Shown here piece after piece: positions 988-37,795 of a stretch of 39,544 nt of DNA (position 1 is the stretch's first letter; every line of letters begins with the position of its first letter). The notes beneath the pieces were generated by a model. That model did no database searches. It saw nothing but the letters and a program-made list of their open reading frames with translations, and was not told the DNA's origin. The position numbers were made by a program, and so were the translations under genes. Source of the DNA: a bacterium (GTDB lineage Bacteria > Patescibacteriota > Microgenomatia > UBA1406 > GWC2-37-13). Location: assembly GCA_027624795.1 (NCBI GenBank), contig JAQBTX010000003.1, positions 1 through 39,544 of the forward strand. The letters are read 5' to 3'.

Positions 988-1075
988 AAAAAATCCTAAA
1001 TCCTAAATCCTTGCCTTGCCGGCAGGCAGGCGAAATCCTAAACAATGCTCAAATATCAAAAGATCAAAATTCAAT
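988..1075. repeat. Family B repeat, 3' flank of the four-helix-bundle gene; contains nested GC-rich palindrome CCTTGCCGGCAGGCAGG
   Basis: 'aaatcctaaatcctaaatcc...gaaatcctaaacaatgctcaaatatcaaaagatcaaaattcaatta' closely matches 26328-26392 inside leuS. Confidence 0.8.
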
Positions 1076-1078
1076 TAC

Positions 1079-1438
1079 CTATTTACATTTTTCTATTATT
1101 GCTCCAAATATTTTCGTCAACTCAATTGATTCTTGTATAAGATTGGTTTGCACTGGTGTGTTTTGATTGTTTGGATTACTTAATCTAAGCCATAAGCCGC
1201 TTTCCTTTGCTTCTTTACGACATATTTTTATCCTCATAACAAAATCTTTTTTACTTAACGATTCATTAGCTTCGATATAATTAGCTGCCACAGAACCAGA
1301 AGATCTTATAAGTTGTTTTCCATCTTCAATTCCAGCGATGGTCTTAGGTAATTGTTGTATATAAATTCGACATTTATTTGCAAAGATATATGTTCTTTGT
1401 TCTAAGTCATAGTGTTTGGTTTTTTGAATTGTATTCAT
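1079..1438 (-). CDS. Four-helix-bundle protein (23S rRNA intervening-sequence / S23 family)
   Basis: Translation 'QLPKTIAGIEDGKQLIRSSGSVAANYIEANESLSKKDFVMRIKICRKEAKESGLWLRL' is the hallmark of this family. Confidence 0.9.
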   Translation of the reverse strand: MNTIQKTKHYDLEQRTYIFANKCRIYIQQLPKTIAGIEDGKQLIRSSGSVAANYIEANESLSKKDFVMRIKICRKEAKESGLWLRLSNPNNQNTPVQTNLIQESIELTKIFGAIIEKCK

Positions 1439-1440
1439 TT

Positions 1441-1490
1441 GAATTTATTTAGAGTTTAGAGTTTAGGGTTTAGGATTTAGAGTTTAATAA
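1441..1490. repeat. Family B repeat, 5' flank of the four-helix-bundle gene, inverted relative to 988-1075
   Basis: 'ttatttagagtttagagtttagggtttaggatttagagttta' is the reverse-complement style of the AAATCCTAAACTCTAAATCC unit. Confidence 0.75.
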
Positions 1491-3934: not shown

Positions 3935-4016
3935 GTCATCCTGAGGCATCTTTTGTCATCCCGAACTCGTTTCGGGATCTTTCTATCAAAGATGCTGAAA
4001 TAAATTCAGCATGACA
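3935..4016. repeat. Family A dispersed repeat
   Basis: 'tcatcctgag...tcatcccgaactcgtttcgggatc...gatgctgaaataaattcagcatgaca'. Confidence 0.85.
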
Positions 4017-4039
4017 ATATATTGAATGACATGAAAAAA

Positions 4040-5267: not shown

Positions 5268-5398
5268 CAAATCCTAAATCCTAAACTCTAAATCCTAAAT
5301 AATACTCAAAATACTAAATTTAAATATTCAAAACAGTTTAATGATTTGAGCATTAGAATTTAGAATTTGTTTAGAATTTAGATATTAGAGCTTATTAT
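5268..5398. repeat. Family B element with inverted ends (gene-less) between nusG and rplK
   Basis: 'aaatcctaaatcctaaactctaaatcctaaataatactcaaaatac...gatttgagcattagaatttagaatttgtttagaatttagatattagagc'. Confidence 0.75.
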
Positions 5399-7562: not shown

Positions 7563-7695
7563 TAAATCCAAAATCCTAAACTCTAAATCCTAAATAAATA
7601 ATAAACTCAAATTATCAAATGTTAAAACATGAGCACTATTTAGATTTAAGATTTTGATCATTGTTTCGTACTTAGCGCTTAGTATTTAGAGCTTT
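7563..7695. repeat. Family B element with inverted ends (gene-less)
   Basis: 'aatcctaaactctaaatcctaaat...ctcaaattatcaaatgtt...gatttaagattttgatcattg...tagtatttagagc'. Confidence 0.7.
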
Positions 7696-9321: not shown

Positions 9322-10023
9322 TTGAATAAATGTATGCCATGTAAAAATAGGGTCAAACAACTTGCAGAAGGAGCGTACTATCATGCATATAATCGGGGTT
9401 ACCATCGTCAGCAGGTATTTCTCAATGAACACGATTATCATACCTTTATACATATTCTTAAAAAATACCTCGACCCAGATTTTCGTGAAACTAAATTCCT
9501 TCCCAATGGAGAAGCTGTTCAAATAGCCGTAAATAAGCCTTTGTATGAAAAAGTGGAATTGCACTCCTATTGTCTCATGCCTAATCACTTCCATCTTTTA
9601 GTAAAACAGATTTCTAAAGATGGTATGTCTCGACTAATCAATGTAGTATGTTCTCAATATTCGACCTACTTTAATAATAAATACGAACGTGAAGGGACGA
9701 TATGGCAGGGGACCTATAAGGCAGTAATAGTGAAAACAGAAGAGCAGTATCTTCATTTAAGCAGATATATTCACCTGAATCCATTTCCTATTTTACATAA
9801 ACTAGAAGAATATCCCTACTCGAGCTATCCAACGTTTATAGGAAAAAAGAAATTTTCCCATTGGTTTAAACCAGAAGGTATTTTGCATTCCTTTACTTCG
9901 AAATATAAAGACACCGGAGCATCATATCAGAGATTTGTTGAAGGATACCACCAACTTCACGAAGACGAGCGTAGGAAAGAGGAAGAATTAATCCAGCCGC
10001 TCATATTAGATGAAAAAACATGA
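9322..10023 (+). CDS. REP-associated tyrosine transposase (RAYT; Y1/IS200-like, HUH family)
   Basis: 'GAYYHAYNRGYHRQQVFL...LHSYCLMPNHFHLLVKQ...REGTIWQGTYKAVIVKTEEQYLHLSRYIHLNP'. HUH signature HFH and conserved Y/HLNP region. Start may be the TTG at 9322 or the ATG at 9334. Confidence 0.93.
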   Translation: MNKCMPCKNRVKQLAEGAYYHAYNRGYHRQQVFLNEHDYHTFIHILKKYLDPDFRETKFLPNGEAVQIAVNKPLYEKVELHSYCLMPNHFHLLVKQISKDGMSRLINVVCSQYSTYFNNKYEREGTIWQGTYKAVIVKTEEQYLHLSRYIHLNPFPILHKLEEYPYSSYPTFIGKKKFSHWFKPEGILHSFTSKYKDTGASYQRFVEGYHQLHEDERRKEEELIQPLILDEKT

Positions 10024-10038
10024 GAATAAAACAAAAAG

Positions 10039-10083
10039 TCTCATAGTAAAAGGGTCTGTCCCGATTACTATAGACATTTTTGT
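10039..10083 (+). repeat. REP-like hairpin element downstream of RAYT
   Basis: 'tctcATAGTAAaaGGGtctgtCCCgaTTACTATagacatttttgt'. Exact 45-nt match in reverse orientation at 22542-22586. Confidence 0.95.
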
Positions 10084-20438: not shown

Positions 20439-22493
20439 TTAGCTCAATTTACTTACAATCGCAGTTGCATCTATTTCCTCAAACCTCAACAGTTCTTCTG
20501 GTTTGCCTGAACGGGGGATTTTATTCACGGCAAGATGCGTTAATTTGATAATGTTACTGGATTCCCGATCGGAGTCGGGAATGACATTAGTTAATGCGTG
20601 TCGAACAGCATCGCCTAAACCGCCATCGGGGTAATGATCTTCTACCACTACCACGTGACCTGTTCTCTGAGCATATTTTTTGATCGTGTTACCATCTAAT
20701 GGTTTGATACTGTATGCATCAATAACTGCTATGTTTGTACCATTTTTTTTGAGCTCTTTTTGTGCTTTGAGTGCTTCATGAACGGTGATCCCTGCGGCAA
20801 TAACTACAGCTATGTCATCTTCATGTTCAACCAGAACTTTTGATCCTCCGATGGGGAATTGTTCATCAGATTGGTAAAGCGATTCAGTTTTTGCTCGAGT
20901 TAATCGCAGGTACGAAAGTCCCTCGTGGGTTCGCAGTTCATTTACCAGTTTTACCGTAGATACAGGATCAGATGGGTACAGAACTACTGCGTGTAGGAGG
21001 GCACGCATCATAGCCAAATCTTCCAGAGCCATTTGTGAAGCCCCATCTTCCCCAATAGAAACACCCGCATGTGAGCCAACAATGGTCATATTGGGATTTG
21101 CATATTGACTCATTCGTATTTGATCATAAGCACGGGCCAAGAATGCAGCAAAACTTGATGCAAAGGGAATGAGTCCAATCTTACTCATGCCCAGTGCTAC
21201 TGACACCATGTTTTGCTCGGCAATAAACATCTCAAAGAATCGATCTGGAGCAACTTCTTTCATGGCTTCTGCAAATGTTGAATTAGATGTCTCGGCATCA
21301 AGAACAACTACGCGCTCGTCTGTTGCTATGAGCTTAAGTGCGGCTCCATAAGCTTCACGAGTGGCAGTGGGTTTAACAAAAGTTGGAACATCCCTCCCCC
21401 CGCTAAGCGGGGTGCTCACACGTCCAACGTGCCTATCGCCTTCATAAGGGAGATCTGTATGAGTTCCCCCTTCAGGCCCGCCTGCCGGCGAGGCAGGAAG
21501 GGGGTGCCCCGAAGGGGTGGGGGATGTTACATCTATCTTTTCTGGTTTATTTACTTCTCCTCGCACATTTAAATCAATATCTCCCAGTTCTTTGAGAGCG
21601 GTTTCCATGACATCTTTTGGCAATGCTTTTCCGTGCCAGCCGTCTTTGTCTTCCACTGCAGAAATACCAGCACCCTTTTTGGTTTTGGCAATGATCATGG
21701 TTGGTTTATCTGATTCCAGATTTGTTAGAGCTTGTTGCACCTCATCTATATTGTTCCCATGTTCGATCATGATAGTTTTCCAGCCAAATGCCTCAACTCG
21801 TTTCTGATAGGTTTCAATATCCCATCCAAGCATTGTTTCTCCTCGTTGTCCTAGACGATTCACATCAAGGATTCCAATCAGATTATTGAGTTTATAGTGT
21901 GATGCCACTTGCATAGCCTCATATACTTGACCTTCGGCAAACTCTGAATCTCCCATCAGTACGTACACCATAGGTGTACGGAAGCTCGAAGCACGAATAT
22001 CTAAATCCGAAACAATTATTGAATTTTCTAAATTCGAATTTTTGTCATTTGAATTTGTTTCGAGTTTAGAGTTTAGAGCTTCGGATTTACTAAGTTGCAG
22101 CTTGATCCCCAGTGCCATGCCAAGTCCCACAGAAAGTCCTTGACCCAGTGAGCCAGTGGCAACATCTACCCATGGAAGATCTGTGGTTGGGTGACCTTCA
22201 AATCGTGAGTCAAATTTACGAAGGGTGAGAAGTTCATCATATTCTACCCAGCCAGCAGCTCGGTACATGGCGTAGAGTAGGGGAGCGGCATGACCTTTAG
22301 ATAATACCATACGGTCGTTAAAAATATACTTTGGATCCTTTTCATCGTATGTAAAGTGTCCATCAAACCAAAGTGCAGTCATAAGTTCTACCGCAGAAAG
22401 TGAGCTGGTAGGGTGACCAGTTCCCGCAGCCGTGGTCATTTGCAGTATGTCATGACGAATGAGTTTAGTGAGTGCTTTGAGTTCAGATTTCAT
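20439..22493 (-). CDS. tkt: Transketolase with repeat-derived in-frame insertions
   Basis: 'GHPTSSLSAVELMTALWFDG', 'GHAAPLLYAMYRAAG', 'GSLGQGLSVGLGMALG', 'GDSEFAEGQVYEAM', 'FIAEQNMVSVALGMSK'. Confidence 0.95.
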   Translation of the reverse strand: MKSELKALTKLIRHDILQMTTAAGTGHPTSSLSAVELMTALWFDGHFTYDEKDPKYIFNDRMVLSKGHAAPLLYAMYRAAGWVEYDELLTLRKFDSRFEGHPTTDLPWVDVATGSLGQGLSVGLGMALGIKLQLSKSEALNSKLETNSNDKNSNLENSIIVSDLDIRASSFRTPMVYVLMGDSEFAEGQVYEAMQVASHYKLNNLIGILDVNRLGQRGETMLGWDIETYQKRVEAFGWKTIMIEHGNNIDEVQQALTNLESDKPTMIIAKTKKGAGISAVEDKDGWHGKALPKDVMETALKELGDIDLNVRGEVNKPEKIDVTSPTPSGHPLPASPAGGPEGGTHTDLPYEGDRHVGRVSTPLSGGRDVPTFVKPTATREAYGAALKLIATDERVVVLDAETSNSTFAEAMKEVAPDRFFEMFIAEQNMVSVALGMSKIGLIPFASSFAAFLARAYDQIRMSQYANPNMTIVGSHAGVSIGEDGASQMALEDLAMMRALLHAVVLYPSDPVSTVKLVNELRTHEGLSYLRLTRAKTESLYQSDEQFPIGGSKVLVEHEDDIAVVIAAGITVHEALKAQKELKKNGTNIAVIDAYSIKPLDGNTIKKYAQRTGHVVVVEDHYPDGGLGDAVRHALTNVIPDSDRESSNIIKLTHLAVNKIPRSGKPEELLRFEEIDATAIVSKLS
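20558..20592. repeat. Family A-type palindrome inside tkt
   Basis: 'ggattcccgatcggagtcgggaatgacat', encodes 'VIPDSDRESSN'. Confidence 0.75.
21388..21535. repeat. Family C repeat inside tkt
   Basis: 'ccctccccccgctaagcggggtgctcac...ccttcataagggagatc...gttcccccttcaggcccgcctgccggcgaggcaggaagggggtgccccgaaggggtgggggatg'; related to 27500-27685 in leuS. Confidence 0.8.
21985..22092. repeat. Family B-related palindromic insertion inside tkt
   Basis: Nearly identical to 23002-23118 in tyrS. Termini 'cgaagc...aaatccgaaacaa' / 'ttgtttcgag...gcttcgga' are inverted. Confidence 0.9.
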
Positions 22494-22541: not shown

Positions 22542-22586
22542 ACAAAAATGTCTATAGTAATCGGGACAGACCCTTTTACTATGAGA
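22542..22586 (-). repeat. Solo REP-like hairpin element between tyrS stop and tkt
   Basis: 45-nt exact reverse-complement match to 10039-10083. Confidence 0.95.
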
Positions 22587-22588
22587 TG

Positions 22589-23770
22589 TTATCGGGTCAC
22601 CTGAAAAGATCTGACTTGTTCAAGAAGTTTTTTTGCCTCTTCATTTTCTTCAAAATGTTTTCGTACTGGCTCAAGTAAATTGTCTAAAATATCTATCACA
22701 GCCGATTTCAAATCCATTGGATGAAGTGCTTTGGAAGCATAATCTTGTTCCAATTCTTGGTACGATTTATAGGTTGCTGCACCGCCAAACTTATCCGGAC
22801 GTGAAATTTGAATTTCATTTTGTGTTTCGAAAATGATGTATTTGCAATATTCAAGAATCGGATTCTCTTCCACTATTCCTTCCGGTGCCCATGCTTTCCC
22901 AATTTTTCGTTTGATATCTTCTTTGGTATCGGTCATAAATATGGCAGAGTCAGGATTGGATTTGGACATTTTAATGGCAATGACACGGCTTATCGCATCA
23001 TCCTTTAAATCCGAAGCACGAATATCTAAATCCGAAACAATGTCCGAATTTTTTAAATTCGAATTTTGATCATTTATATTTGTTTCGAGTTTCGAGTTTG
23101 ATGCTTCGAGTTTTTGCGGAGGAGTGAGGCCCTGTAACATATGGTGACTCACCACTACTGGTTTCCAAAATCCAAGTTGAGGTCCAATCTCTCTGGCTAA
23201 CATGTTAACTTTCCGCTGATCCATCCCTAGTTGTGTTATTTTAGCTCCAAGGGTAAAAATATCTGCAACCTGCATACAAGAATATATGATATGAGCGCCA
23301 GTGAGTTTATCCATTGATTCATCTCGTCCCATCATCTCTGCAGTGCGGACAAATCGTTTGAGTGCATTTGACTTACCCACTTGAAGCACAAGCTTCCAGT
23401 AATCCGGGTCTTTGACCAAATCTGAGGCCCAAACAAATTCAACATTCGACAGATCCATGCCGCATGCCTTCCAAACTTCAATGAAATACTTTCCCACGGT
23501 TTTGATCTTTTCCAAATCCCCTCCCATTTTATTGTTTGCATAGGCGTGCCAGTCAGCCACAAACATTTTGAATGATATGCCGGCTTTCGTCATCTTATTC
23601 ACATTCACCGCTTTCAAGATTCCTTGAGCAATATGTATTTGGCCTGAAGGTTCAAAGCCATCATAGGCTATAAGTTTTTCTTCAGATGAGAGAAGTGTTT
23701 TGAGGTCTTCTTGAGTGGTGACTTCTTCTCCAACTTGGTTAATAAGATCCATACGCTCGTCGAGTGTCAT
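22589..23770 (-). CDS. tyrS: Tyrosyl-tRNA synthetase, archaeal/eukaryotic-like, with in-frame repeat insertion
   Basis: 'YDGFEPSGQIHIAQGILKAVNVNKMTKAG', 'WHAYANNKMGGDLEKIK', 'AIKMSKSNPDSAIFMTDTKEDIKRKIGKAW'. Confidence 0.88.
   Translation of the reverse strand: MTLDERMDLINQVGEEVTTQEDLKTLLSSEEKLIAYDGFEPSGQIHIAQGILKAVNVNKMTKAGISFKMFVADWHAYANNKMGGDLEKIKTVGKYFIEVWKACGMDLSNVEFVWASDLVKDPDYWKLVLQVGKSNALKRFVRTAEMMGRDESMDKLTGAHIIYSCMQVADIFTLGAKITQLGMDQRKVNMLAREIGPQLGFWKPVVVSHHMLQGLTPPQKLEASNSKLETNINDQNSNLKNSDIVSDLDIRASDLKDDAISRVIAIKMSKSNPDSAIFMTDTKEDIKRKIGKAWAPEGIVEENPILEYCKYIIFETQNEIQISRPDKFGGAATYKSYQELEQDYASKALHPMDLKSAVIDILDNLLEPVRKHFEENEEAKKLLEQVRSFQVTR
23002..23118. repeat. Family B-related palindromic insertion inside tyrS
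   Basis: 'aaatccgaagcacgaatatctaaatccgaaacaa...ttgtttcgagtttcgagtttgatgcttcgag'; encodes 'KLEASNSKLETNINDQNSNLKNSDIVSDLDIRASDLK'. Confidence 0.9.
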
Positions 23771-23787
23771 AGAGATAGTATAACAAA

Positions 23788-23910
23788 TACCACTTGTCAT
23801 GCTGAACTTGTTTCAGCATCTTTTATAGATAGATCCTGAACTAAATTCAGGATGACAATGCATGGATTCTTCGGTCGCTTCGCTCGCTCAGTATGACAAA
23901 TTATCATATA
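23788..23910. repeat. Family A dispersed repeat (intergenic)
   Basis: 'cttgtcatgctgaacttgtttcagcatc...gatcctgaactaaattcaggatgacaatgcatggattcttcggtcgcttcgctcgctcagtatgacaaa'. Confidence 0.85.
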
Positions 23911-25441: not shown

Positions 25442-28153
25442 ATGTCAAAGTATTTCCCCGAACAATTTGAAGAAAAATGGGCTCAGCAGTGGGTTGCAGA
25501 TGGGTTGTTTCAAAAGACTTTTGATGTAGAAGGTCAAACCTTAGAAAATAAAATGTATCTTCTCTATGCGTTTGCCTACCCATCGGGAAGCGGGCTGCAT
25601 GTGGGGCATGTAGAACCACTTACCGCACTTGACATTATGGCTCGGTATTACCGATCTATAGGTAAAAAGGTATTTTTTCCGGTTGGTTGGGACGCCTTTG
25701 GGGTACCTGCAGAAAACTATGCCATAAAAACCGGGGTTCCCCCCGTACAAACAACCAAAGAGTCTATTGCTACTTTTTCACGGCAAATAAAGCGCATTGG
25801 CATATCATACGATTGGGGAGCAGAGCTGGCAACCTGTCACCCCGGATATTATAAATGGACTCAATGGCTCTTTTTACAGCTTTATAAAAAAGGTCTTGCA
25901 TATAAAAAAGATGCACCAGTCAATTGGTGCCCGAGCTGTCAAACCGTACTTGCCAATGAACAGGTAGTTGAAGGTAAGTGTGAACGCTGCGGAACTGATG
26001 TAATTCAAAAAAAGATGGATCAATGGTTTTTCAAAATTACCCAGTACAAAGATGAGCTCATTTCAGGACTTGACCAAGTAGATTGGCCCAAAGCCACCAA
26101 ACAACAACAGATTAACTGGATTGGGAAGAGTGAAGGCGCTCTTATAAAGTTTGAGCTGTGTCATTCTGATCCCGACGTTATGTCGGGAGAAGAATCCAGA
26201 AAAGACATGGATCCTTCGGTTTCACCTCAGGATGACACTGGAGAAATTAAAGTTTTTACGACCGCGCATGATACCATATATGGCGCGACATTTTTGGTCG
26301 TCGCGCCAGAACATGAGATTATCAATGAAATCCTAAATCCCAAATCCGAAATCCTAAATAATACTCAAATATCAAATGATCAAATTCAATTAATCGAACA
26401 ATACATTAATCAAGCCAAGTCTAAAACAGAAGAGGAACGATTGATTAATAAAGAAAAAACCGGTGTTTTTTCAGGTCTTTATGCTTTTAATCCAGCTTCA
26501 CAAAAAGAAATTCCTATTTGGATTGCAGACTATGTACTAGCTCAATATGGTACGGGCGCTATAATGGCTGTACCAGGGAGTGATGAGCGTGACAATCAGT
26601 TTGCTAAGAAATTTGAGCTCCCCATCACCTATGTCGCTCAAAAAAATGGTAGTTCTGACAAAGATAAATTCATCAGTTTTTCAAATGAGATTAAAGTAAA
26701 TCCATCTCAATATATGCTAATAAACTCAGGTGAATTTAATGGACAGGACTTTACAGAAGGACGTGAAGGCATCATGAAAAAGCTAGAAGACATGGGTGTT
26801 GCTAAACGAGAAACTACGTACAAACTCCGTGATTGGCTTATATCCCGACAACGTTATTGGGGAGCTCCGATACCCATTGTTTATGACCCAGAAGGAAAAG
26901 CTCATATGGTCAAAGAAGAACATTTACCGTGGATGTTACCTACGGACGTAGATTTTAAACCAACCGGCGAAAGTCCTTTACGACTATCGAAAGAATTTAA
27001 AGAGCGAGTAGAGAAGTTGTATGGGAAAGGGTGGACCCCAGAATATGACACCATGGATACATTTGTGGATTCATCATGGTATTACCTTCGCTACACTGAT
27101 CCTCGAAATGAGAATGAATTTGCACGGACGGATGCCATGAAAAATTGGATGCCGGCAGATTTCTATATGATTGGTCCCGAGCACATTGTACTTCATCTTT
27201 TGTACAGTCGATTTTTTACCAAATTTTTACGTGATGAAGGATATTTGAGCGTGGATGAACCATTTCAAAAAATGCGTCATCAAGGCATGATTCTTGGACC
27301 AGATCACCGAAAGATGAGTAAAAGTAAGGGGAATGTCATAAATCCAGATGACGTGATGAAAGAGTATGGCGCTGACACCTTACGGTTATATGAAATGTTT
27401 TTAGGTCCTATAGATCAAGATAAGCCATGGAGTGTAGAAAGTGTTCAGGGGCAATATAGGTTTTTAAAACGGGCGTGGAGTTTGTTTGAGTCATTACCAC
27501 CCCGTCCTCGACAGGAAGTCGAGTCCACCCCTCCTTATAAAGGCGGGGAGTCAAAATTTGAGAAAGCTCTCCTCCTTCCTAAGGAGGAGTATTCCCGACG
27601 TAACGTCGGAGACCCCCTTTCTGAAGGGGGAACTAAGAAAGATCTCCCTTTTGAAGGGAGTACCCGAAGGGGGAGGGATGTTTCTCAACTTCTTCATAAA
27701 ACTATAAAGAAAGTGGGATCAGATATAGAACAGCTCAAATTTAATACTGCTATTTCGGCAATGATGGAGCTCCTCAACAAGATTGAGGCAGAATTAAGAA
27801 TGAAGAATTACGAATTACGAATTGAAGATGCCAAGAAGTTTTTAAAGATTCTTTCACCTTTTGCGCCCTTTATGACCGAAGAGATATGGCGTAATCAATT
27901 AGGTGAAAAAGAATCGATTCATACAGCACCATGGCCAGAAGTTGACGAATCACTATTGGTAGAATCTACCATAACGATCCCTGTTCAGGTGAACGGAAAA
28001 GTACGCGGACGGGTAGTAATTGGAATAGGCGACGATGAAGAAAGTGTGGTTGCTGCAGCAATGCAAGATGAAACCATCATTGCGTTTATCCCCGAGAAAA
28101 AATATAAGAAAATTATATATGTGAAGGGGAAGATCTTAAACATCATTGTCTAA
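25442..28153 (+). CDS. leuS: Leucyl-tRNA synthetase (bacterial type) with four repeat-derived insertions
   Basis: 'YPSGSGLHVGHVEPLTALDIMARY', 'WCPSCQTVLANEQVVEGKCERCG', 'MAVPGSDERDNQFA', 'KMSKSKGNVINPDDVM'. Confidence 0.96.
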   Translation: MSKYFPEQFEEKWAQQWVADGLFQKTFDVEGQTLENKMYLLYAFAYPSGSGLHVGHVEPLTALDIMARYYRSIGKKVFFPVGWDAFGVPAENYAIKTGVPPVQTTKESIATFSRQIKRIGISYDWGAELATCHPGYYKWTQWLFLQLYKKGLAYKKDAPVNWCPSCQTVLANEQVVEGKCERCGTDVIQKKMDQWFFKITQYKDELISGLDQVDWPKATKQQQINWIGKSEGALIKFELCHSDPDVMSGEESRKDMDPSVSPQDDTGEIKVFTTAHDTIYGATFLVVAPEHEIINEILNPKSEILNNTQISNDQIQLIEQYINQAKSKTEEERLINKEKTGVFSGLYAFNPASQKEIPIWIADYVLAQYGTGAIMAVPGSDERDNQFAKKFELPITYVAQKNGSSDKDKFISFSNEIKVNPSQYMLINSGEFNGQDFTEGREGIMKKLEDMGVAKRETTYKLRDWLISRQRYWGAPIPIVYDPEGKAHMVKEEHLPWMLPTDVDFKPTGESPLRLSKEFKERVEKLYGKGWTPEYDTMDTFVDSSWYYLRYTDPRNENEFARTDAMKNWMPADFYMIGPEHIVLHLLYSRFFTKFLRDEGYLSVDEPFQKMRHQGMILGPDHRKMSKSKGNVINPDDVMKEYGADTLRLYEMFLGPIDQDKPWSVESVQGQYRFLKRAWSLFESLPPRPRQEVESTPPYKGGESKFEKALLLPKEEYSRRNVGDPLSEGGTKKDLPFEGSTRRGRDVSQLLHKTIKKVGSDIEQLKFNTAISAMMELLNKIEAELRMKNYELRIEDAKKFLKILSPFAPFMTEEIWRNQLGEKESIHTAPWPEVDESLLVESTITIPVQVNGKVRGRVVIGIGDDEESVVAAAMQDETIIAFIPEKKYKKIIYVKGKILNIIV
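26157..26245. repeat. Family A repeat inside leuS
   Basis: 'tgtcattctgatcccgacgttatgtcgggagaagaatcc...gatccttcggtttcacctcaggatgacac'; encodes 'CHSDPDVMSGEESRKDMDPSVSPQDDTG'. Confidence 0.9.
26325..26395. repeat. Family B repeat inside leuS
   Basis: 'gaaatcctaaatcccaaatccgaaatcctaaataatactcaaatatcaaatgatcaaattcaatta'; encodes 'EILNPKSEILNNTQISNDQIQL'. Confidence 0.88.
27500..27685. repeat. Family C repeat inside leuS
   Basis: 'ccccgtcctcgacaggaagtcgagtccacccctccttataaaggcggggagtc...ctccttcctaaggaggagtattcccgacgtaacgtcggagaccccctttctgaagggggaac...'; several hairpins. Confidence 0.85.
27792..27829. repeat. Short repeat inside leuS encoding 'ELRMKNYELRIED'
   Basis: 'gaattaagaatgaagaattacgaattacgaattgaag' has an internal near-tandem 'gaattacgaattacgaatt'; absent from the canonical LeuRS pattern. 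Confidence 0.55.
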
Positions 28154-28194: not shown

Positions 28195-28256
28195 ATTGTC
28201 ATTCCCGTGAAAACGGGAATCCAGACTGGATCCCGCATCAAGTGCGGGATGACAGA
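28195..28256. repeat. Family A dispersed repeat (intergenic)
   Basis: 'tgtcattcccgtgaaaacgggaatccagactggatcccgcatcaagtgcgggatgacag', two hairpins. Confidence 0.85.
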
Positions 28257-31907: not shown

Positions 31908-32000
31908 GTCATACTCACCACGATATGATTTACTGTCATCCTCGCGGAGGCGGGGATCCATAAAGAGAGCCTGGATCCCGCATCAAGTGCGGGATGACAA
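31908..32000. repeat. Family A dispersed repeat (intergenic)
   Basis: 'tgtcatcctcgcggaggcggggatcc...tggatcccgcatcaagtgcgggatgacaag'. Confidence 0.85.
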
Positions 32001-37740: not shown

Positions 37741-37763
37741 GTGTACATGCTATCACGAAAATG

Positions 37764-37795
37764 ATAGATCCTGAAATGAATTCAGGATGACAAAG
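37764..37795. repeat. Family A short palindrome
   Basis: 'gatcctgaaatgaattcaggatgaca', matches the intergenic unit near 23838. Confidence 0.75.

Follow-up and report, generated by a model that had tools for sequence, protein, structure and literature searches.

The palindrome and its host genes

The window analysed here, a stretch of 39,544 nucleotides, contains neighbouring genes for transketolase and tyrosyl-tRNA synthetase (TyrRS). Both ORFs are intact, and each includes an in-frame segment of about 36 codons that corresponds to an imperfect palindrome of ∼107 nt.

20439..22493, minus strand: transketolase, host gene, 684 aa (Pfam PF00456, PF02779, PF02780)
21982..22088, minus strand: palindromic element without ORF, in frame in transketolase (iterated nhmmer profile match, 78 bits; inverted arms; missing from the G001, G002, G004 and G006 orthologues)
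22589..23800, minus strand: tyrosyl-tRNA synthetase, host gene, 403 aa (Pfam PF00579; PDB matches)
23007..23113, minus strand: sister palindrome, in frame in tyrosyl-tRNA synthetase directly ahead of the KMSKS region (nhmmer, 74.5 bits)

The transketolase palindrome encodes KSEALNSKLETNSNDKNSNLENSIIVSDLDIRASSF and its TyrRS counterpart KLEASNSKLETNINDQNSNLKNSDIVSDLDIRASDL. The arms of the former are 29 nt long (21987–22015 and 22055–22083), 79% complementary and 39 nt apart, while those of the latter are 34 nt long and 74% complementary. Folding of the transketolase copy's strand beats that of dinucleotide shuffles (z = −3.6), as does folding of the TyrRS copy (z = −4.0). The two copies are 87% identical over 97 nt (E = 7e-28; ∼85% overall) and have a common orientation and a common frame. 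Since only two of the six frames of each copy are open, this agreement is partly forced and constitutes weaker evidence than it appears to. Comparison of the two coding copies revealed eight non-synonymous and four synonymous codon differences, with changes distributed 7/5/7 over the three codon positions; there is no third-position excess, and no purifying selection on the insert peptide is visible in this comparison. From the intact frames we infer that the insert is translated rather than removed.

A first-pass annotation had claimed an in-frame palindrome of 108 nt (36 codons) in transketolase, recurring as the same peptide in the same orientation and frame in TyrRS. The first claim held: the stop-free ORF 20439–22493 (minus strand) has the reported peptide at the reported place, and the range was right to within a few bases of the profile-defined element (21982–22088). 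The second held as well, with the reduced weight that the two open frames allow.

Insertion sites in related proteins and solved structures

The transketolase insert lies in the loop between GQGL and GDSE, which spans 68 residues here as compared with 37–45 in the short-loop relatives from the same genus (G001, G002, G004 and G006); in G003, another repeat-derived sequence occupies the place of the palindrome. The TyrRS loop is empty in G001, G002, G003 and G004 of the same genus (DNA alignments included), and in G006 the loop that holds the palindrome here contains an unrelated repeat (DLPYEGDRHVGRVSTP...). The absence of the segment from same-genus orthologues shows that it is an insertion and not an ancestral loop. 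Across about 24 transketolases of the family, the GQGL...GDSE stretch measures 35–39 residues in about half and 55–80 in about one third, and the longer loops contain several unrelated repeat families.

The loops were placed by sequence alignment to PDB entries. In human transketolase, 10 residues stand against 46 in the query, ahead of the strand bearing the ThDP GDG motif. The TyrRS structure 8zmi has two residues (251–252) before KMSKS against 48 in the query, with no counterpart of the insert. Both inserts, before the GDG motif and before KMSKS, thus occupy loops that are kept short in solved structures.

The annotation had further stated that canonical transketolase lacks the segment, and had named alignment with close relatives as a check and conservation in distant lineages without DNA-level identity as a refutation. 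Its statement is borne out by the short loop of the human enzyme and by the same-genus relatives without the segment, and alignment showed the segment to be missing from the nearest relatives. Only one transketolase from another genus (G062; loci L091/L260) has a similar segment in the same loop, and its DNA is recognisable as a member of the element family. The refuting condition does not hold, and the reading that a palindromic repeat was inserted in frame, here and in TyrRS, is supported.

Other repeats are also found in these genes. A second family is in frame in the linker between transketolase domains (SPTPSGHPLPASPAGGPEGGTHTDLPYEGDRHVGRVSTPLSGGRD; 21439–21520), with a related stretch in leucyl-tRNA synthetase (LeuRS; 27621–27657), and the repeat in the G006 TyrRS loop belongs to this family. 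The transketolase loop of G019 (L263) contains a repeat-like peptide, HPELGSGSNEIPKRVRND, perhaps a member of a family such as the dispersed hairpins of the GGATCCCGCATCAAGTGCGGGATGACA type, repeats of which lie at 3987–4017, 23828–23858, 28223–28254, 31970–32000 and 37763–37793.

Copies and distribution of the element family

Three further matches were found within the window.

5269..5393, minus strand: intergenic copy in the rplK/nusG gap, T-type heptamers (CTAAATC), no open frame (nhmmer, 44 bits; six-frame translation)
7564..7693, minus strand: intergenic copy, T-type heptamers (nhmmer, 42.5 bits)
26328..26369, plus strand: half-element match in frame in LeuRS (NEILNPKSEILNNTQ; repeat family D2, 90% over 42 nt to an intergenic copy; open frame; not compared with relatives)

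The arms are composed of tandem 7-mers (AAATTCG AAATTCG AATATCG AAATTCG AAACAAT ...), with the complement on the other side. Full-length copies measure ∼131–132 nt in the family's other genera and a little more elsewhere (median 133 nt for 98 copies retrieved with the iterated profile). By BLAST, 31 of the 73 family genomes contain the element; the only one of these from the genus is the genome studied here. A search for the exact arm pattern gave at least 120 stretches from many bacterial phyla; the titles of the metagenome-assembled genomes (MAGs) concerned include Deltaproteobacteria/Desulfobacterales, Aminicenantes, Planctomycetes, Omnitrophota, Ignavibacteria, Calditrichota, Acidobacteriota, Verrucomicrobia and several Patescibacteria. 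Other proteins hosting the element in frame, as identified with Pfam, are CarB, LeuRS, an M16 peptidase, a MiaB-type radical SAM enzyme, a DUF359 protein, a non-ribosomal peptide synthetase (NRPS) and another transketolase. In Acidobacteriota and Aminicenantes MAGs (L157 and L173) the element sits in the same loop of the NRPS adenylation domain, just before YIIYTSG(T/S)TG, at residues 1089–1139 and 1201–1250, respectively, of the stop-free frame. An Rfam scan of the window returned tRNAs only and no rRNA.

The genomes are mostly draft MAGs; that independent genomes show this pattern speaks against chimeric assembly. Related sequences are not independent, and p-values throughout are to be taken as guides.

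Reading frames of heptamer arrays

Because 7 equals 1 modulo 3, no frame of a strand is closed in a stop-free 7-mer array, and all three encode the same cyclic peptide. Arrays of CGAAATT give RNSKFEI and their complement NFEFRIS; for CTAAATT arrays all six frames are closed. The intergenic copies in the window are of the CT kind and the two coding copies, in transketolase and TyrRS, largely of the CG kind. Across loci, stop-forming (CT) heptamers account for 15 of 109 in coding copies versus 113 of 467 (p = 0.055), a marginal difference that is suggestive only. Coding copies also favour lengths of 2 modulo 3 (11 of 17 versus 23 of 74, p = 0.013), a comparison made post hoc. We infer that the openness of stop-free arrays in every frame helps to explain in-frame survival.

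Association with S23/IVP genes

The first-pass annotation missed that longer members of the family carry an S23/IVP gene, one of them inside the window, where a half-element at 1423–1478 pointed to the ORF 1079–1438.

991..1485, minus strand: candidate complete element of the same family, ∼495 nt (sequence; half-element match 1423–1478)
1079..1438, minus strand: S23/IVP (four-helix-bundle) gene (PF05635, 23S_rRNA_IVP, E = 5.8e-10, 39.8 bits against a cut-off of 33.8; bracketed by element halves)

The candidate element consists of a heptamer arm (1439–1485), the S23/IVP gene, whose ATG directly follows this left arm, and, after the stop codon, a complementary arm (991–1078) broken up by a GC-rich nested repeat. 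An upstream ComEA-like ORF (1477–2175) takes its stop codon (1477–1488) from the initial T-type heptamer of the element arm.

A tblastn search of 121 loci, comprising the window and loci picked for element DNA, yielded six close relatives of the window S23 protein, itself included (window, L085, L096, L102, L124 and L176). All six genes are bracketed by half-elements on both sides. L124 and L176 are deltaproteobacterial MAGs, and the evidence for arms at PF05635 genes outside Patescibacteria rests on these two. The palindromes, in turn, retain a relic of the start region: the junction of arm and ATGA is found at the right place in 34 of the 98 full-length copies, versus 5.1 expected by shuffling (maximum 10).

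The association extends to PF05635 genes picked regardless of the element. At 24 loci from the family, flank complementarity was 17.0 out of 20, whereas swapped partners scored 13.6 (p = 5e-14) and 33 control genes 13.2; at 28 phylum-wide loci it was 16.6 versus 13.2 (p = 1e-16), with lag 7 giving the highest mean periodicity on both flanks. The arm repeat unit varies by lineage, each having a different 7- to 9-mer, of which 7 is dominant and 8 or 9 occurs in some. Clear 7-mer arms are not present at every PF05635 locus, some having 8- to 9-mers and some only weak arms. A more distant S23-like gene (L186, 1518–1844) is flanked by a different, GTCAATG-type 7-mer family, and it is possible that each S23 lineage has its own 7-mer.

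Palindromes and PF05635 genes covary. Over 73 genomes the element count tracks the PF05635 count (rho 0.51, p = 5e-6; partial correlation 0.41 given Y1 transposases), and the 13 genomes without PF05635 hold one element match in total; these correlations are without phylogenetic correction.

No target-site duplication was detected (1.76 versus 1.69 ± 0.13 in swapped flanks), and there is hence no signature of classical transposition. Reverse transcriptase was considered as the mobiliser and rejected: RVT_1 is present in only 11 of the 73 family genomes, with rho of −0.13 to the elements and −0.11 to PF05635.

Origin of the palindromes

The palindromes are likely to be ORF-less, MITE-like derivatives of an inverted-repeat element with S23/IVP (PF05635) cargo, because half-elements bracket all six S23 genes and start-region relics persist in 34 of 98 palindromes. 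In this view, the complete element would be a 7-mer array followed by ATG, the S23/IVP ORF and the complementary 7-mer array, about 480–500 nt altogether, and loss of most of the ORF would leave a palindrome of about 100–135 nt. Mobility itself is inferred from dispersal and patchiness. Copies may be moved by the S23 protein or by a host activity; the mobilising enzyme is unknown, S23/IVP is not known to possess nuclease or transposase activity, and to our knowledge no mobility mechanism has been established for either in-frame palindromes or S23/IVP. Inserts would persist owing to exposed loops and to stop-free 7-mer arrays that are open in every frame, lengthening transketolase and TyrRS by about 36 residues that are polar and probably disordered, without benefit to the host. 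Counting against this explanation, the Coxiella S23p is perhaps not expressed (PMC4990558).

A bolder reading, which taken as a whole could as easily prove wrong as right, would make S23/IVP genes the defining feature of a large class of mobile elements in bacteria, bounded at both ends by inverted arrays of 7- to 9-mers that differ between lineages. Such elements would be chromosome-wide and present in many phyla; 23S rRNA intervening sequences would be their rRNA-inserted members and in-frame heptamer palindromes in essential proteins their ORF-less derivatives. The S23 protein would aid the mobility of its own element by recognising its own 7-mer.

Alternative explanations

The palindromes might instead be REP/MITE-like sequences that depend for their mobility on a Y1 (IS200-like/RAYT) transposase acting in trans, for example the one encoded at 9322–10023, the S23 gene being a passenger. 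A Y1_Tnp gene is present in the window and in 53 of 73 family genomes, including all 13 with at least four elements, and the missing target-site duplication is compatible with Y1 enzymes. However, the repeat beside the Y1 gene of the window is a different 45-bp sequence (10039–10083; exact inverted copy at 22542–22586), the partial correlation between element and Y1 numbers given PF05635 is only 0.13, a weak independent tie, and the element arms bracket S23 genes. We consider this explanation unlikely. The 45-bp repeat, located right after the Y1 gene and, inverted, between the transketolase and TyrRS genes, is probably the Y1 enzyme's own.

Similarly improbable is that heptamer arrays arise and spread locally through replication slippage, hairpin-templated repair or gene conversion, with S23 genes there by accident or needing the hairpin. 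The arms are indeed tandem short repeats, the transketolase and TyrRS copies lie 1 kb apart and are closest to each other, and target-site duplications are absent. However, the same ∼131-nt element, with conserved ends and the start-codon relic, is found at unrelated sites and in many phyla, and each S23 gene has a left and a right arm specific to it.

It is very unlikely that the insert is cut from the mRNA, as rRNA intervening sequences are by RNase III, leaving a normal protein. The hairpin potential of the coding strand (z of −3.6 and −4.0) and RNase III excision of the Coxiella rRNA intervening sequence (PMC4990558) would favour this; however, fragmented rRNA can work unjoined whereas a cut mRNA cannot be translated through, and intragenic copies sit in long stop-free frames and favour lengths of 2 modulo 3 (the post hoc comparison above).

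One could also regard the segment as a normal functional loop, specific to this lineage and kept in transketolase by protein-level selection, as the naturally variable length of the loop across transketolases might suggest. This is all but excluded by the same DNA in TyrRS and between genes, by same-genus orthologues without it, and by the codon differences between the two coding copies (8 non-synonymous, 4 synonymous) with no third-position excess.

Significance

The proposed derivation from an S23/IVP element unites in-frame selfish palindromes and S23/IVP in one sequence-readable element, in a phylum with very small genomes. It provides a testable parent for protein-coding palindromes, suggests what an uncharacterised protein family may do, and accounts for low-complexity inserts that would otherwise be annotated as parts of proteins. 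The loops of essential enzymes offer natural experiments in loop tolerance, the same transketolase loop having taken repeats of several unrelated families. The element family is widespread and little described; in the open-access literature searched (subscription papers being outside the scope) we found no paper connecting S23/IVP with heptamer palindromes in chromosomes or with inserts lying in frame in proteins.

Comparison with known systems

REP/RAYT systems likewise comprise dispersed palindromes with a Y1 transposase gene nearby. The repeat described here differs in that no RAYT gene flanks it, and in being longer, heptamer-built and often intragenic. PARCEL elements of Mycoplasma and allies (PMC2996958) are also palindromic repeats coding for protein, but were described as amphipathic repeat-coding sequences, without a link to S23 or 7-mer arms.

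S23/IVP proteins were described from 23S rRNA intervening sequences. That of Coxiella is 428 nt long and is removed by RNase III; tandem heptamers immediately precede the start codon of the S23p ORF that it contains (PMC4990558). IVP ORFs have been reported in rRNA insertions of CPR bacteria (PMC11270868) and IVP genes in cas loci (PMC3936711), and PF05635 resembles the DGR protein Avd (PMC10053308). The present family shares with intervening sequences a PF05635 ORF in its larger element; unlike them, its copies reside in protein genes and spacers, mostly without an ORF, and none of the window copies is in rRNA. Like MITEs, it displays terminal inverted repeats, high copy number and internal-deletion derivatives whose ends are shared with a larger coding element (six of six close S23 genes), but target-site duplications are absent and the parent has no recognisable transposase.

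As a kind, the element resembles the Rickettsia palindromic elements (RPE) and the protein-coding palindromes of Wolbachia, multi-copy palindromes of 100–150 bp of which some lie in frame within unrelated proteins and others between genes (PMC3767692, citing Ogata 2000 and 2005). It is likewise a multi-copy palindrome of ∼100–150 bp, in frame in some unrelated genes, intergenic elsewhere and absent from relatives' orthologues. It differs from them in that its arms are tandem 7-mers, its hosts are Patescibacteria and many other phyla, and an S23/IVP parent is visible.
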